From Spirochaetales bacterium (GTDB lineage Bacteria > Spirochaetota > Spirochaetia > DSM-2461): a stretch of 54,207 bases of DNA. Below, piece after piece: positions 47,407 to 54,207 of the stretch; position 1 is the stretch's first letter, and each line of letters begins with the position of its first letter. A program made the translations under genes and the position numbers. A model generated the notes under the pieces. That model was not told the origin of the DNA. It saw only the letters and a list, made by a program, of their open reading frames with translations, and made no database searches. The DNA is taken from contig JAFGXR010000092.1 of assembly GCA_016936555.1 (NCBI GenBank), positions 1-54,207 of the forward strand, given 5' to 3'.

Positions 47407-49092
47407 GTGGACGACCGGGACAGGACCTATGAATACATAGTCAACACTTCATCGGACTTTATAACACTCATTAATAAAAAATACGAATATGAAGTCGTTA
47501 ACGATTCCTACTGCCGGGTGCTGGGAAAAAAGCGGGAGGAGATCCTCGGGCATCATGTGGCCCGGATCTGGGGGAACTCCCGCTTCGAGGATAAAATCAG
47601 GCTCCATCTGGACAAGTGTTTCTCCGGCAGAGACATTCATTATATAGAGGAATTCGATTTCGGGCCGGAACACAAGTATATGCATGTCTCCTATTATCCC
47701 TACCGGATAGGAGGTGAGATAACCCATGCGCTTGTCTTTTCCCATGATATTTCCAGGATGGGGCAGATGGAGTCTCAGCTCCATAATTTCGAGTTCCGCG
47801 ATTCTGTTACAGGCCTCTTCAATCGTAAATCCCTCGATATCATCCTCGATATGGAGATCGAAAAAGCGAGGCGGAGCCGCGGGGAACCGGATCGGCTGAG
47901 GGCGGTCATTTTCATCTCCATAGCCAATCTCCAGGAGATCAATCTGGCTCACGGCTATGACCGGGGGAATATGCTGCTGGAAAATTCCGGCATCAGAATC
48001 AAGGAATTTCTGCGACAGAGTGATTATGTATTCCGCTATGACGGTCAGGAGCTTGTGGTTCTCCTTTCCAATCTGGCTGGAGAATCGGATTCGGCCAAAG
48101 TCGCGCAGAAACTGTTCGAGAAGATAACCATGCCCTACCGGAGCGATCGCTTTGATATTACGCTCCATTGCCATATGGGCATATCCCTCTATCCGCGGGA
48201 CAGCGCCGACGGTCACGAGCTGATTCAGTCCGCTGCTAAAGCCCTCGGCGAATCAATCGCCACCTCAGTTCCCTTCTGCATATATGACGGGGAGCTGCAC
48301 AACCGGGCCCTCGACAAGCTTCATATGGAAAGTGATTTGTACCGCGCCTTCGAGCATAATCAATTCGAACTCTATTACCAGCCCATAACCACTCCCGAAG
48401 GAAGAATAAAGGGCTGCGAGACTCTGATCCGATGGAATCATCCCGAAAAGGGGTTTATTCGCCCCGATCAATTCATACCCGTAGCCGAAGCCAACGGTCT
48501 GATTACAGCCATCGGAAAATGGATTATCTACCGGACAGTGGAAAAAATCCGCAAATGGAGTGTACCTTATGGCATATACATCTCCATAAATCTATCGGTC
48601 CGCGAGTTTGAGAATGAGGATCTCTTTGATATCCTGGTCCATGCTATGGGGAAAGGGGGGGAGCTTCCCCGGTAATATCTCAAACTGGAAATTACCGAAT
48701 CGGGGGGAATGGAAAAACCGAAACAAACCATAGCCCGTATGAAAAAGCTTAAGGAAGCCGGATTTTCCATTTTCCTCGATGATTTCGGAACAGGGCAATC
48801 CAGCCTGGCTTATCTGAAGGATATTCCCGCCTCGACTCTGAAAATAGATAAATCCTATGTCGATCCAATCGTCGATGATGAAGACAGCCGGTCCTATTTG
48901 AAACTCATTCTCTATCTTGCGGAAAACAGAGGCAAGGAAACGGTTGTGGAAGGTGTCGAGACGGCGGAGCAGCTGGCCATCCTCAAGGAAGCGGGCTGCC
49001 GGGCCATCCAGGGATATTATTTTTCCCGGCCGATCCCGGCCGAGCAGTTCGAGAATCTCCTGATTCATAACACGATTCTTCCCCTTGGCTGA
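47407..49092 (+). pseudogene. PAS-GGDEF-EAL protein gene interrupted by an in-frame TAA
   Basis: The frame from the GTG at 47407 continues in the same phase to 49092, but TAA at 48673-48675 splits it after residue 422, inside the EAL domain. The text across it reads GGELPR, stop, YLKLEITESGG, an otherwise normal EAL segment. Domains in order: PAS (about 1-115), a GGDEF with degenerate loop RYDGQELV (no cyclase activity expected), and EAL with CETLIRW (ETL variant), FLDDFGTGQSSLAYL and ETVVEGVET. The downstream ATG at 48709 has no proper ribosome-binding site. A recent nonsense mutation, readthrough or sequencing error are all possible. Confidence 0.8.
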
Positions 49093-49107: not shown

Positions 49108-49135
49108 TTGACAAACAGAAGAAGGAGATTAAAAA
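49108..49135 (+). promoter_or_regulatory. Candidate promoter of the SCP2/transketolase operon
   Basis: Perfect TTGACA (49108-49113) and TAAAAA (49130-49135) are separated by 16 bp. The -10 element is weak. The first palindrome (49144-49159) would overlap the transcription start, a classic repressor position. Confidence 0.5.
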
Positions 49136-49143
49136 TAAGAAAA

Positions 49144-49159
49144 GAGTGAGCAGTCGCTC
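49144..49159. promoter_or_regulatory. Operator-like palindrome 1 of the SCP2/transketolase operon
   Basis: GAGTGA-GCAG-TCGCTC is a palindrome with one mismatch. With its flanks it is an inverted copy of the second site at 49213-49228. Confidence 0.6.
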
Positions 49160-49212: not shown

Positions 49213-49228
49213 GAGCGAGTAATCGCTC
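49213..49228. promoter_or_regulatory. Operator-like palindrome 2 of the SCP2/transketolase operon
   Basis: GAGCGA-GTAA-TCGCTC has perfect 6-bp arms. Its flanks (ATC on the left, TT on the right) match the complement of site 1, so the two sites share 17 of 21 positions. The centres are 69 bp apart. The size and symmetry suit a TetR-family dimer. Confidence 0.65.
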
Positions 49229-49284: not shown

Positions 49285-50040
49285 ATGAGTAGAGAGACAG
49301 TTATGTCCTACATCAATGTTTTCGCCGTATTGAAGAATATGGAGGAACTCGTCCGTGTCGATTCTGTTTCGGAACAGCTGATCAAAAGCAGAAATATTGC
49401 CATTCAGTTCACCGTACACAAAGGGCCGAAGGCGGTGCTGGCCTTCCGCAACGGAGAAGTCATGCTGACAAGAGGAGGAGGGAAAGCCGACATCAAGCTC
49501 TATTTTTTCTCTCCCGAACACTTTAACAGAATGATGGACGGCAAAGCTAATCCCGTACCCTATAAGGGGCTGACGAAAATCTCATTCCTCACCGGTACTT
49601 TCATGAAGCTGGCGGAAAGGCTCGAATATTACCTGAGGCCCGATGAAGAGAAACTGAAGGACCGGGATTATTTCAGGGCCAATACGGAAATGACCGCCTA
49701 TGCGGCTTTTTTCGCTCTTTCGGAAATAGGAAACCACGATGAGAAGGCTCTTCACAGCAGCCATGCCATTCCAGACGGAACGATTCTGGTAAAAGTGGTA
49801 AACGGTCCGGCCGTAACAGTCATCAAGGAGAAGGGGAGCCTCCGTACGGTAAAAGGGGAACCCGATTCGCCCCGCTGCATTCTCTCTTTCAGTTCACTTG
49901 AGTCTGCCCATCTTGTTCTCAATGGAAAGCTCGATACCTATACGGCTCTGGCGACGGGCCGGATGGCCATGCGGGGATTCATCCCCATGATAGAAAACAT
50001 GAACCCCATTCTCGATCAGGTAGCGGAATACCTGCAATAG
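49285..50040 (+). CDS. SCP2-like protein, first gene of the unassigned operon
   Basis: This 251-aa soluble protein seems to contain two sterol-carrier-protein-2-like halves. The first has VHKGPKAVLAFRNGEVMLTRGGGKADIKLYFFSPEHFNRMMDGKA. The second has DSPRCILSFSSLESAHLVLNGKLDTYTALATGRMAMRG. The ATG at 49285 has an excellent AAAGGAGGA. SCP2 folds bind acyl or other hydrophobic ligands, and that is the basis for the name; similarity is at the pattern level only. The gene is 11 bp before the aminotransferase and 1.5 kb of cluster genes separate it from a second protein of similar build. Confidence 0.6.
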   Translation: MSRETVMSYINVFAVLKNMEELVRVDSVSEQLIKSRNIAIQFTVHKGPKAVLAFRNGEVMLTRGGGKADIKLYFFSPEHFNRMMDGKANPVPYKGLTKISFLTGTFMKLAERLEYYLRPDEEKLKDRDYFRANTEMTAYAAFFALSEIGNHDEKALHSSHAIPDGTILVKVVNGPAVTVIKEKGSLRTVKGEPDSPRCILSFSSLESAHLVLNGKLDTYTALATGRMAMRGFIPMIENMNPILDQVAEYLQ

Positions 50041-50051
50041 GAAGGATAAAG

Positions 50052-51332
50052 ATGATTGAAGCAAAAGAAGATACGAAACTCAATACCTATAAAAAGTCAC
50101 AGGAACTTTTTCAGAGAGCGGTAAAAGTTATTCCCACGGGCATTCCCGGCCATCTGGGGCCGGTGCAATCCCAGTTCATACCCACTTCGGACTTTCCCTT
50201 TTACGCCGAAAAGGCCGAAGGATCCTATTTCTGGGATCTCGATGGTAACAAATTCATCGATTACATGTGCGCCTACGGTCCCAATGTTCTGGGGTATAAC
50301 AACCCCGTTGTGGATGAGGCGGCTTTCGCCCAGTTCAAGAAGGGAAACTGCATGGCCCTTCCCGGCAAGGTTCAGGTGGAATTCGCAGAGCTGCTTGTCG
50401 ATACGATCGACGGGGCCGACTGGGCCATGTTTATGAAGAACGGGGGAGATGCCACAAGTTTCGCCGTTATGGCCGCCCGTGCGGCGACGGGCCGGAAAAA
50501 GCTGGTCCGCATAAAAGGGGGATATCACGGCGTGGCGCCCTGGACCCAGGTCGACGGGCATGCGGGGGTCGTGAAGGAGGATGTATCCAATAATCTCTTT
50601 ATGGAGTGGAACGATGCGGAAGCCTTCGAAAGACTGATCCGCGAGTTTCCCGGACAGATCGCCGGTCTTATTGCCACTCCCTACGATCACAGGATCTTCA
50701 CGGATAACGCTCTTCCCAAACCGGGGTACTGGCAGAAAATCCGTCAGCTCTGCACGGACAACGGAATCGTTCTGATAATAGATGACGTCCGATGCGGATT
50801 CCGTCTCGATATGGGCGGATCGGCGAAATACTTCGGCTTCGAACCGGATCTGGCCTGTTACTGCAAGGCTCTTGCCAACGGCTATAATATTTCCTCGGTG
50901 GTGGGAAAGGAATCGCTCCGCGACGCGGCTTCCAAGGTTTTCTATACGGGAAGCTACTGGTCTTCCGCCGTTCCCATGGCGGCGGGGATAGCCTGTATCA
51001 ATGAGCTGAAGAGGATCGACGGTCCCCGTCTGATGATAGAGAAAGGGGAGAAGCTTACAGAGGGTTTGAAAAAAGCGGCTGAAGCCAACGGGATCGATCT
51101 CGTCATCTCCGGCGTCCCGTCCATGTTTTACATGCGCATTGCCAATGACAATTCGCTGATGATGCATCAGGAATTCTGTGCCGAGTGCGCCAAACGGGGC
51201 GTTTTCTTCGTCTCCCATCACAATCATTTTATCAACTGTTCTCTCTCTGATGAGGACATAGCGAAAACTCTGGAAGTGGCGGAGGAAGCTTTCCGGATAG
51301 TGAAGAAAAATAATCCGGACAAGTGCAATTAA
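50052..51332 (+). CDS. Class III PLP aminotransferase (glutamate-1-semialdehyde aminomutase-like)
   Basis: This fold-type I PLP enzyme of 426 aa resembles glutamate-1-semialdehyde aminomutase and related aminotransferases. The start region FQRAVKVIPTGIPGHLG and YFWDLDGNKFIDYMCAYGPNVLG are typical. PLP contacts are visible in MKNGGDATSFAVMAARAATG, LIIDDVRCGFR and YCKALANGYNISSVVG, where Lys forms the Schiff base. The true substrate is unlikely to be heme precursor because the gene sits between an SCP2-like protein and a split transketolase. GAAGGAT lies upstream of the ATG. Confidence 0.87.
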   Translation: MIEAKEDTKLNTYKKSQELFQRAVKVIPTGIPGHLGPVQSQFIPTSDFPFYAEKAEGSYFWDLDGNKFIDYMCAYGPNVLGYNNPVVDEAAFAQFKKGNCMALPGKVQVEFAELLVDTIDGADWAMFMKNGGDATSFAVMAARAATGRKKLVRIKGGYHGVAPWTQVDGHAGVVKEDVSNNLFMEWNDAEAFERLIREFPGQIAGLIATPYDHRIFTDNALPKPGYWQKIRQLCTDNGIVLIIDDVRCGFRLDMGGSAKYFGFEPDLACYCKALANGYNISSVVGKESLRDAASKVFYTGSYWSSAVPMAAGIACINELKRIDGPRLMIEKGEKLTEGLKKAAEANGIDLVISGVPSMFYMRIANDNSLMMHQEFCAECAKRGVFFVSHHNHFINCSLSDEDIAKTLEVAEEAFRIVKKNNPDKCN

Positions 51333-51342
51333 GGAGGAACTT

Positions 51343-52200
51343 ATGAGCTTGAGCGAAAAAGAATTTCTGGAACTCGATGAAAAAGCGAAAGAGATGAGGC
51401 ATCTGATCCTCGATACGGTTCAGTGGGCCGGGGGGGCTCATGTAGGGGGATCGCTCAGCGCAGCCGATATACTCACGCTGCTCTACTACAAATATCTGAA
51501 TATCGACAGCGACAATCCCGGCTGGGAGGACAGGGACAGATTTGTCCTGAGCAAGGGCCATATCGGCGTCGGCCTGGCGCCCTTTCTGGCGGACAGGGGA
51601 TTTATCGACAGAGAACTCCTCAAAACCTATAACCATACGGGATCCTCCCTGGGGATGCATCTCGATAAAAATAAAGTTCCGGGACTCGACGCCTCGACAG
51701 GATCGCTGGGCCACGGTCTGCCCATCAGCCTGGGGATGGCGCTGGCGGCCAGGCAGAGGGGGAAAGGCTATAAGACCTGGTGCCTTCTCGGAGACGGGGA
51801 ATGCAATGAGGGCTCGGTCTGGGAGGCGGCCATGGCGGCTTCCCATCACAAAGCGGGCAATCTCATCGCCATGGTGGACCGGAACCGCTGCATGATGGAC
51901 GGATCCACCGAAGATGTCATGGCCCTCGAACCCTTCGCCGATAAATGGCGGGCCTTCGGATTCAAAGTGCTGGAAGTGGACGGACACGACCTGAGGGATC
52001 TGGCCGAAGCCATGGAAACAGCCATGGAGGAAGGAGATAAGCCGACGGTCATCATCTGCCATACCGTCAAGGGATGCGGAGTCGAGTCCATTTCCGGAGA
52101 CTACAGGTATCACTACGCCTCCTTCGATCCCGAAAAGACCAGGCTTTTTAAAGAAGAGATCAGCTCTTATCATCAGAAGCGTAGAGAGGAGAACAAATAA
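51343..52200 (+). CDS. Transketolase-like protein, N-terminal (TPP-binding) subunit
   Basis: This 285-aa protein corresponds to the first third of transketolase. It has GGAHVGGSLSAADILTLLYYKYL, LSKGHIGVGLAPFLADRG, GSLGHGLPISLGMALAARQRG and the TPP/Mg motif LLGDGECNEGSVWEAAMAA-SHH with the downstream VDRNR. GGAGGA precedes the ATG. It ends in a one-base overlap (TAATG) with the C-terminal subunit gene, so the two should form one enzyme. Such split transketolases occur in sugar and specialised metabolism; the substrate here is unknown. Confidence 0.9.
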   Translation: MSLSEKEFLELDEKAKEMRHLILDTVQWAGGAHVGGSLSAADILTLLYYKYLNIDSDNPGWEDRDRFVLSKGHIGVGLAPFLADRGFIDRELLKTYNHTGSSLGMHLDKNKVPGLDASTGSLGHGLPISLGMALAARQRGKGYKTWCLLGDGECNEGSVWEAAMAASHHKAGNLIAMVDRNRCMMDGSTEDVMALEPFADKWRAFGFKVLEVDGHDLRDLAEAMETAMEEGDKPTVIICHTVKGCGVESISGDYRYHYASFDPEKTRLFKEEISSYHQKRREENK

Positions 52201-53207
52201 TGGCCGGATTAACCTATACCATTCTGGATGCAACCAATATGTCAACCGCCGAAGTGTACGGAAAAGCCCTGGAACACCTGGCGGATAACCACGACAACGT
52301 CGTGGGGCTAACGGCCGACCTGGCCAAATCCACGAAAATCGGCGTCCTGGCGGAAAAGCACCCGGACCGTCTCTACAATATGGGCATCGCCGAGCAGAAT
52401 CTCTTCGGGGTGGCCGCGGGAATGGCTTCGGCGGGGCTGGTTCCCTACGTCTCGACTTTCGCCATCTTCACATCCATGCGGGCCCTCGATCAGGTGCACA
52501 CCGATATCTGCTATCAGAACCTCAATGTGAAAATGATCGCCACACACGGGGGCCTGAGTTTCGGCCAGGCCGGCTCGACCCACCACTGCACCGAGGATAT
52601 CGGCATCATGCGCACCATGGCCAATCTGACCGTCGTCGTTCCCGCCGACGGGATATCCGCCGCCGAGGCCGTCACGGCCGCCTACAGCAAGGAGGGCCCC
52701 GTCTATATCCGCCTTAACAGAGGGTATGATCAGCCCGTATACGACACATCGGAATGCCGGTTTGAAATCGGAAAATCCATCGAGCTTGCGGAGGGGTCCG
52801 ATCTGACCATCATCGCCTGCGGCGTAGCGGTTTACCGGGCCAGGGAAGCGGCGGCGTTCCTGAGGAACAGCGAGGGCATTCACGCCCGCGTTCTCGATAT
52901 GCATACGATTAAGCCGATCGACCGCGACGCCATTCTGAAGGCGGTTCACGATACGCGGAGAATCATTACCGTAGAGGATCACAATATCATTGGCGGTCTG
53001 GGAAGCGCTGTCGCGGAAGTCATGGCCGAAAGCGGCAAAGCCTGCGCTTTTAAACGGCTGGGCGTGCCCGATACCTTTTCCATTATCGGCTTGCATGAGG
53101 ATCTGATGGCCCATTACGGTTACGATGTAAACGGTATCGCCGCGGCGGTCCGTGAACTGATGAAGATGGATTTCGAAGAAGATGACGACTGGGATGACGA
53201 ACTATGA
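52200..53207 (+). CDS. Transketolase-like protein, C-terminal subunit
   Basis: This 335-aa protein carries the pyrimidine-binding and C-terminal domains of transketolase. GIAEQNLFGVAAGMASAGLVPYVSTFAIF contains the catalytic Glu that activates TPP. THGGLSFGQAGSTHHCTEDIGIMRT and PADGISAAEAV follow, and DMHTIKPIDRDAI plus VEDHNIIGGLGSAVAEVM mark the last domain. The C-terminus is very acidic (MDFEEDDDWDDEL), which is unusual. It overlaps the next gene by 4 bp. Confidence 0.9.
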   Translation: MAGLTYTILDATNMSTAEVYGKALEHLADNHDNVVGLTADLAKSTKIGVLAEKHPDRLYNMGIAEQNLFGVAAGMASAGLVPYVSTFAIFTSMRALDQVHTDICYQNLNVKMIATHGGLSFGQAGSTHHCTEDIGIMRTMANLTVVVPADGISAAEAVTAAYSKEGPVYIRLNRGYDQPVYDTSECRFEIGKSIELAEGSDLTIIACGVAVYRAREAAAFLRNSEGIHARVLDMHTIKPIDRDAILKAVHDTRRIITVEDHNIIGGLGSAVAEVMAESGKACAFKRLGVPDTFSIIGLHEDLMAHYGYDVNGIAAAVRELMKMDFEEDDDWDDEL

Positions 53208-53998
53208 GCGAGCTCACCAATGATGAAATCTATGCCAACAGAATTTTTCTCAATTCTGTTCTGCCTCTGTTAAAAGTCATTGTGGAGGATAGGCCGGTCT
53301 TCGGGAGGCTCTGGGAAGGTGTCAATTCCGTCTGCCAGGTTTCGGCACTGGGACCGGAAGGAAAAGTGGGGACACACTTTCTCATAGAGGAGGGAAAATG
53401 GACCGTAAAGCGGGGGATTTATGAGGGAAAGCCCCATGTCGAACTGGAGTTCCCCTCTGTCAGAGCCCTGAATCTCTTCTTTCAGGGCAAGAGCAAAAAG
53501 CTGCCGAAGATGAAGGGGTGGTTCCGGCTCGGCCTCTTTCTGAAGTTTATGAGGACCTTGCTGAAGATGGCGGCTCTTCTGGGAATGGAGGAACCTCCGG
53601 AAGATGAGGATGATCAAGCGCTGCTTGTAAAGATGTACTTCTACCTTCTCTCGGCGGGCATCAGCCAGCTCAATAAAGCGGGACACCCTGAAATATCATC
53701 TTGGATCAAAATGAGCCCCGATCGGGTTTACGCCTGGGAAGTGGAGACCCATCCCGGCTGTTCCGCTTATATGAGAGTGAAAGCCGGAAAATCGAAAGCC
53801 TGCCGCGGTGTGTACAAACGGTCCAAACCCTTCTTTACCATGCGCTTCGCCAATCTTGACAGCGCGCTGGGAATCCTTATGTCCATTGACGATATGATCG
53901 AAGCGACGGTGAAGGGGAGGATCAAAATGGTCGGAAGCCCCGAATACGGCGCCCGTATCGGCGACTATATGCTTATCGTAGGAGATTATGCGAAATGA
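53204..53998 (+). CDS. Second SCP2-like protein of the unassigned operon
   Basis: This 264-aa soluble protein has the same general layout as the product of 49285: a first half with GKVGTHFLIEEGKWTVKRGIYEGKPHVELEFPSVRALNLFFQGK, a hydrophobic middle (GWFRLGLFLKFMRTLLKMAALLG), and a second half ending DSALGILMSIDDMIEATVKGRIKMVGSPEYGARIGDYMLI. The sequences are distant but the order of features agrees. Its ATG overlaps the transketolase stop, and its stop overlaps the VOC gene start by 4 bp, so it is firmly part of the operon. Function unknown. Confidence 0.6.
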   Translation: MSELTNDEIYANRIFLNSVLPLLKVIVEDRPVFGRLWEGVNSVCQVSALGPEGKVGTHFLIEEGKWTVKRGIYEGKPHVELEFPSVRALNLFFQGKSKKLPKMKGWFRLGLFLKFMRTLLKMAALLGMEEPPEDEDDQALLVKMYFYLLSAGISQLNKAGHPEISSWIKMSPDRVYAWEVETHPGCSAYMRVKAGKSKACRGVYKRSKPFFTMRFANLDSALGILMSIDDMIEATVKGRIKMVGSPEYGARIGDYMLIVGDYAK

Positions 53999-54207
53999 AA
54001 GTTAAATCACTAAGTCATGTGGGCCTGACCGTCTCGGATTTCGCATCGGCGGTCCGCTGGTATCACGATAAATTCGGCTGCCGCCTGATAGACGACAACA
54101 CTCTGCCTCCGGCTCAGGTTACGGCGCTTAAAGACTTGTACGGCCTTGAGAATTCTTCCATAAAACTGGGATTTCTCAGAGTTCCCGGAGGCGGCGTTGT
54201 GGAAATC
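53995..54207 (+). CDS. VOC-family (glyoxalase-like) protein, cut by the window edge
   Basis: The first 71 residues of a vicinal-oxygen-chelate protein are visible: KVKSLSHVGLTVSDFASAVRWYHDKFGCRLIDD, with a metal-binding His in SHVGLTV, and later SSIKLGFLRVPGGGVVEI, where the Glu of VVEI is the second metal ligand position. The ATG overlaps the stop of the preceding gene (ATGA). VOC enzymes include epimerases, lyases and dioxygenases; the class cannot be set from this fragment. The operon clearly continues beyond the window. Confidence 0.85.
   Translation, partial: MKVKSLSHVGLTVSDFASAVRWYHDKFGCRLIDDNTLPPAQVTALKDLYGLENSSIKLGFLRVPGGGVVEI

Follow-up and report, generated by a model that had tools for sequence, protein, structure and literature searches.

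What does a bacterium make or break with an operon that unites two SCP2-like proteins, an aminotransferase, a transketolase in two pieces and a vicinal oxygen chelate (VOC) metalloenzyme? This question is raised by the right end of contig JAFGXR010000092.1 of a Spirochaetales bacterium (assembly GCA_016936555.1), a stretch of 54,207 nucleotides that is referred to in its entirety as the window. A first reading, made from the letters of the window only (the sequence-only reading), had suggested that an unusual keto-sugar or amino compound is processed or made, perhaps attached to or carried with a lipid. We lean towards the view that this operon, presumably under TetR control, breaks down sphingoid bases, i.e. 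long-chain 2-amino-1,3-diols such as sphinganine and sphingosine. Such a substrate is suggested because the aminotransferase is nearest to FumI, the acceptor site of the transketolase is altered, and an operator motif recurs at ceramidase promoters. The operon consists of six open reading frames (ORFs) in one direction, tightly spaced, and its right end is the contig end at 54207:

49285..50040, + strand: SCPa, tandem SCP2-like protein of 251 amino acids, predicted lipid-presenting partner of AT3 (Pfam SCP2, PF02036, E 9.5e-7; family alignment)
50052..51332, + strand: AT3, class III pyridoxal phosphate (PLP) aminotransferase of the FumI type, 426 amino acids, PLP lysine K272 (PF00202, E 1e-39; best PDB match FumI 6hbs)
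51343..52200, + strand: TKn, N-terminal half of the split transketolase, binding thiamine diphosphate (ThDP), 285 amino acids (PF00456; best PDB match 6yak, E 1.8e-71)
52200..53207, + strand: TKc, C-terminal half of the split transketolase, 335 amino acids (PF02779 and PF02780; best PDB match 6yaj, E 1.5e-80)
53204..53998, + strand: SCPb, diverged tandem SCP2-like protein of 264 amino acids, adjoining the transketolase halves (hhalign with SCPa)
53995..>54207, + strand: VOC metalloenzyme, 3' end missing at the contig end (Pfam Glyoxalase, PF00903, E 1.7e-5 on the fragment)

A first clue to the substrate comes from the aminotransferase. The closest PDB structure to AT3 is FumI of Sphingopyxis MTA144 (6hbs, 'aminopentol aminotransferase'; E 8e-93, 315 bits, 39% identity). 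Glutamate-1-semialdehyde aminomutase (GSAM) follows far behind (E 3.8e-54, 188 bits), and among the PDB matches the C-6' sugar aminotransferases are also more distant than FumI. Beyond the class III PLP fold, both proteins have the motifs DYMCAYGPN, KNGxDATS and DDVRxGFR, and 28 residues that are invariant in the AT3 family are common to FumI and different in GSAM. AT3 thus belongs to the FumI subfamily by its proximity to FumI over other class III enzymes, by its subfamily residues and by K272. FumI-type enzymes are class III aminotransferases, and fumonisins are similar to sphinganine (PMC9858248). With pyruvate as acceptor, FumI takes the 2-amino group off hydrolysed fumonisin B1 (HFB1) and leaves a 3-hydroxy-2-ketone (PMC2933618). 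The affinity of AT3 to FumI points to the C2 amine of sphingoid bases as the predicted target, which like that of FumI would adjoin a C3 hydroxyl, although FumI itself acts on hydrolysed fumonisin in a mycotoxin pathway. To our knowledge, FumI does not occur alongside a transketolase or SCP2 proteins. A contig scan with AT3 returned only Acetobacteraceae relatives, none with transketolase neighbours. In view of the likeness of AT3 to FumI, and without a search for squalene-hopene cyclase, a role in hopanoid side-chain formation, as for HpnO, was dropped. We disregarded a 376-amino-acid ORF on the strand opposite AT3, which is probably an artefact of codon usage.

TKn and TKc are both nearest to the two-chain transketolase of Carboxydothermus hydrogenoformans, with which they share the catalytic residues. 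We numbered residues as in E. coli TktA and compared the family with 25 single-chain enzymes and up to 28 split or related enzymes of relatives. The ThDP site, the catalytic histidines and the glutamate identify the pair as a transketolase, as the family retains H26 (33/34), H66, H100, H261, E411, H461, H473 and R520. The acceptor site has changed: R91N, G262Y, L466F and D469A were found in all 33 members scored (in one more, R91 and G262 could not be read), and R358A in 29/33. Hence, the residues R91, R358 and D469 of a sugar-phosphate-type acceptor site are replaced by N (33/33 read), A (29/33) and A (33/33), respectively, the last corresponding to A124 in the TKc of the window. The single-chain controls have D469 in 25/25 and R91 in 24/25 cases, and the Carboxydothermus enzyme, too, keeps all three residues where TKn/TKc have N, A and A plus an added F and Y. 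In E. coli transketolase D469 is salt-bridged to R91, and a D469T variant acts on aromatic aldehydes that the wild type does not accept (PMC5073344). Since R520, H461 and mostly S385 are retained, one substrate of the enzyme may be a sugar phosphate and the other hydrophobic. The 1,3-dihydroxy-2-alkanone expected from the action of AT3 on a sphingoid base is built at its head like a transketolase donor. A second split-transketolase operon, with S at the D469 position, lies elsewhere in the window genome (contig 27, L094 4241-11666). Its Gfo/Idh-type-like oxidoreductase gene overlaps the PF02036 hit of the genome, and it also contains an aldehyde-dehydrogenase-like gene.

The two remaining complete genes encode the SCP2-like proteins, which are predicted to bind lipids. 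SCPa is a member of PF02036 (29.5 bits, curated cut-off 21.3). SCPb gave no Pfam hit, and none of 10 homologues reached a meaningful score, but it aligns over its full length with the SCPa profile (hhalign probability 94%, E 9.6e-8) and is best called a diverged SCP2-like protein. Single-sequence structure models of SCPa and SCPb (pLDDT 32 and 34, respectively) were too low in confidence for a fold search.

Is this set of genes a chance assembly? The spacers measure 11 bp (SCPa-AT3) and 10 bp (AT3-TKn), and the following ORFs overlap by 1 bp (TKn/TKc, TAATG) or by 4 bp (TKc/SCPb and SCPb/VOC, ATGA each). The sequence-only reading had described this layout correctly as co-directional, with gaps of 11 bp or less and a run-off at the right edge, except that its 'several' 4-bp overlaps are two. 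With SCPb as query for counting operon carriers, we found it in 10/98 relatives and in 34/393 genomes of the phylum, spanning 21 of the 168 genera sampled. It was found in none of 398 sampled Pseudomonadota genomes, in a search without a positive control, and in none of the plasmids or viral contigs searched. Profiles of all six proteins were run over 41 related loci. The order SCPa-AT3-TKn-TKc-SCPb-VOC occurs in 14 and the first five genes in a further 8, so that the five-gene core is present in 22/41 loci. The sequence-only reading had named a gene order conserved in no relative as grounds for abandoning its proposal, and this is not what we found. In a comparison with a same-genus relative, dN/dS values of 0.026-0.076 across the five complete genes indicate strong purifying selection. 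As the order recurs in many genomes and dN/dS is low, the operon is not a product of chance.

The partial loci reveal a pairing. TKn-TKc-SCPb stand alone in 13/41 loci and SCPa-AT3 in 5/41 (1/41 is cut by a contig end), and none of the 41 combines SCPa with only the transketolase or SCPb with only AT3. Wherever operons are split, SCPa remains beside AT3 and SCPb beside the transketolase; in every locus with a complete TKc, SCPb adjoins the transketolase halves. In this constant lipid-binding-like partner gene the system differs from the Carboxydothermus enzyme. The most economical explanation of these pairings is that the two SCP2-like proteins work for one enzyme each. In ubiquinone synthesis a lipid is presented to soluble enzymes by the SCP2 proteins UbiJ and UbiT. 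They have a single SCP2 domain, whereas in the operon a separate tandem-SCP2-like protein goes with each of the two enzymes. We consider it an evenly balanced proposition that a transketolase has here been recruited as a lipid enzyme cleaving or forming the C2-C3 bond of a sphingoid-base ketone, with an SCP2-like protein presenting the lipid to each enzyme; bases would then be broken down or made without sphingosine-1-phosphate lyase or serine palmitoyltransferase.

Which genes accompany the operon? In relatives the VOC gene is complete (170-190 amino acids); behind it lies a gene for TetR or for an FMN/FAD oxidoreductase, or else unrelated genes. Across the loci the recurrent neighbours encode TetR (16), a flavoenzyme resembling Old Yellow Enzyme (OYE) or 2,4-dienoyl-CoA reductase (7), aldehyde ferredoxin oxidoreductase (AFOR; 4), a zinc-dependent alcohol dehydrogenase (Zn-ADH; 4) and aldehyde dehydrogenase (3). 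This company fits an aldehyde or ketone pathway. The Zn-ADH loci (L071, L073, L074 and L076) represent a variant without AT3; three of the four also encode an extended short-chain dehydrogenase/reductase (SDR), and L076 an aldehyde dehydrogenase. These clusters are perhaps a lipid-alcohol route into the same ketone. Upstream of the operon, at 47407-49092 of the window, a GGDEF/EAL-type signalling gene is split into two ORFs that share a reading frame (47407-48675 and 48709-49092). The same-genus relative has a single ORF of 573 amino acids (L022 3125-4846), and the in-frame stop in the window reflects either a broken gene or a sequence error.

The region between this gene and SCPa contains the candidate control elements:

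49108..49136, + strand: sigma-70-like promoter, TTGACA-17-AAAAAT (consensus match only, 10/12; 1.0 expected by chance in the region)
49144..49159, no strand assigned: palindromic operator-like site 1, GAGTGA-GCAG-TCGCTC, 8 bp past the -10 hexamer
49213..49228, no strand assigned: palindromic operator-like site 2, GAGCGA-GTAA-TCGCTC, ~57 bp upstream of SCPa

The motif GAGYGA-N4-TCRCTC occurs in the window at 49144 and 49213 only and three times in the whole genome, with 0 matches of the reversed control. The same-genus relative has an equivalent pair ~149 and ~58 bp upstream of its operon plus one extra site, and in both genomes the third site lies ~27 bp upstream of a gene for a POTRA-domain outer-membrane-type protein. 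The motif is found at the operon in several families, and from its position we infer that the adjacent TetR protein binds it. Seven other operon genomes contain 20 motif sites, two of which are at neutral ceramidase promoters, where ~0.0016 sites are expected by chance. In one of these genomes (G229) the operator ends ~28 bp before the start codon of the ceramidase gene (E 6.5e-106 in Pfam, 7e-90 for a PDB neutral ceramidase), and the ceramidase of the other (G263) has a Pfam E value of 5.4e-64. Both genomes carry the operon, and they are the only two in which operon and ceramidase were found to have the operator motif in common. Ceramidase genes are also more frequent in operon genomes (12/34) than in the others (29/359; Fisher p 3.5e-5, uncorrected for ancestry).

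Other sites of the motif stand beside different genes. In G097 one site adjoins a TetR paralogue and an FGGY carbohydrate kinase, and another adjoins a second class III aminotransferase gene with an aldolase-like gene behind it (L196 2232-4623, L197 2657-5509). In G229 it precedes a TetR paralogue that is accompanied by two SDRs, one of them extended and OleD-like (L206 3011-5553), genes that may belong to the same lipid regulon. In G302 it lies upstream of a gene for a predicted secreted protein of 506 amino acids with a C-type lectin match (L200 1405-2925), whose N-terminal THNT motif is reminiscent of phospholipase C-type enzymes.

Taken together, a breakdown pathway can be drawn up. Neutral ceramidase, where present, would free the sphingoid base, and the outer-membrane POTRA protein may assist its uptake. 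AT3, supplied by SCPa, would shift the C2 amine to a 2-oxo acid to give the 1,3-dihydroxy-2-alkanone. From SCPb the split transketolase would receive this ketone and cut its C2-C3 bond, releasing the chain as a fatty aldehyde; the two-carbon ketol unit would be kept on ThDP and passed to an acceptor aldehyde, probably a sugar phosphate. If the chain is unsaturated close to the carbonyl, the OYE-type flavoenzyme may saturate it, and oxidation of the fatty aldehyde may fall to AFOR or aldehyde dehydrogenase. Natural sphingoid bases are 3R and transketolase ketoses 3S, and VOC enzymes perform enediolate chemistry; for this reason the VOC protein may epimerise C3 of the hydroxyketone. Alternatively, the C3 selectivity might be relaxed by D469A; several clusters have no VOC gene.

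The proposed system resembles the SphR regulon of Pseudomonas aeruginosa (cerN, sphA, sphBCD; PMC3900636), in which one regulator likewise governs a neutral ceramidase, an outer-membrane protein (a predicted porin) and intracellular enzymes that attack the base. SphR, however, is an AraC-type, sphingosine-activated regulator, and in place of an aminotransferase and a transketolase its regulon has an oxidase, a cytochrome and a threonine-aldolase-like protein. In the literature on split transketolases, on transketolase with sphinganine or fatty aldehyde and on bacterial sphingosine transaminase pathways, we found no description of the proposed route, in line with the sequence-only reading, which knew of no pathway with this gene set. 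Breakdown of long-chain bases is best known via sphingosine-1-phosphate lyase and, in Pseudomonas, via an oxidase and an aldolase-like set.

A number of observations weigh against sphingoid-base breakdown. FumI is the sole solved structure of its subclade, and its closer relatives, from Acetobacteraceae, adjoin a radical-SAM-like gene, so that the FumI clade is not necessarily tied to sphingoid bases. HFB1, the substrate of FumI, has a methyl C1 and lacks the C1 hydroxyl; D469A could mark merely another aldehyde; and the operon itself has no genes for fatty acid activation or transport. The ceramidase promoters were recognised as a target of the motif post hoc. Random sequence of the same composition gives ~2 motif copies per 5 Mb, and single extra sites are therefore weak alone. 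The motif was not found at the ceramidase loci of the other operon genomes examined, most of whose operons also lack the exact motif, and TetR paralogues in G229 may own some of its sites. The test of ceramidase co-occurrence ignores shared ancestry, families f53 and f66 have ceramidases without the operon, and no PF04734 ceramidase was found in the window genome.

Both reactions are reversible, and the same pathway could run as a synthesis, which is the main rival: a fatty aldehyde would be extended by a ketol unit on the transketolase, and AT3 would aminate the 1,3-dihydroxy-2-ketone to a sphingoid base without serine palmitoyltransferase. The residue evidence from AT3 and the transketolase applies equally to this direction, transketolase and transaminase are combined in a known synthetic cascade to 2-amino-1,3-diols, and no protein of the window genome passes the NCBIfam cut-offs for serine palmitoyltransferase. 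Non-canonical bacterial sphingolipid synthesis does exist (PMC12134224). However, the operator motif at two ceramidase promoters and the aldehyde-oxidising genes that recur near the operon fit breakdown, the operon lacks acyltransferase, head-group or acyl-reductase genes, and we regard synthesis as unlikely. Ceramidase co-regulation and aldehyde-oxidising neighbours favour breakdown, so that the sequence-only formula 'processes or makes' can be narrowed towards the former. Two candidates of the window genome fell under the palmitoyltransferase cut-offs: L105 is a glycine C-acetyltransferase, and L115 is a synthase that lies in a polyketide-like cluster. The latter cluster (contig 33, L115 4024-14712) contains, as judged by eye, HMG-CoA-synthase-like, enoyl-CoA-hydratase-like and ketosynthase-like genes, and its alpha-oxoamine synthase has serine palmitoyltransferase as nearest PDB match; it is possibly a natural-product or unusual sphingolipid cluster.

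Rather than the direction, the substrate may differ. The same mechanism would hold for another lipid with a 2-amino-3-hydroxy or polyol head, such as a 1-deoxy base, a capnine-like sulfonolipid or, via the Zn-ADH variants, a lipid polyol. The methyl C1 of HFB1 is compatible with such a substrate, and the ADH-TKn-TKc-SCPb clusters without AT3 suggest that an alcohol, too, can give rise to the ketone. Against this stands the ceramidase under the same motif, since ceramidases release N-acylated 2-amino alkanols, which narrows the substrate without fixing it; a lipid other than a classical sphingoid base appears improbable to us. A still smaller likelihood attaches to the idea of an amino or keto sugar with SCP2 proteins carrying its lipid-linked form. 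Transketolases and class III aminotransferases are both found in aminosugar pathways, and the sugar-phosphate binders R520, S385 and H461 are mostly retained. Yet in all members scored the acceptor site has lost R91, D469 and mostly R358 and gained two aromatic side chains, AT3 is nearer to FumI than to C-6' sugar aminotransferases, and no glycosyltransferase or nucleotide-sugar gene was recognised as recurring beside the six-gene operon. What endures of the sequence-only reading is small-carbonyl and amino chemistry linked to a lipid, while the evidence points to the lipid itself, a sphingoid base, as the substrate in place of a keto-sugar carried with one.

If sphingoid-base breakdown is the true function, the transaminase-transketolase route would be new chemistry for the breakdown of long-chain bases. 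A central sugar enzyme would thereby enter lipid metabolism, and paired SCP2-like proteins would gain a role. The operon would then mark sphingolipid-consuming bacteria of this phylum.

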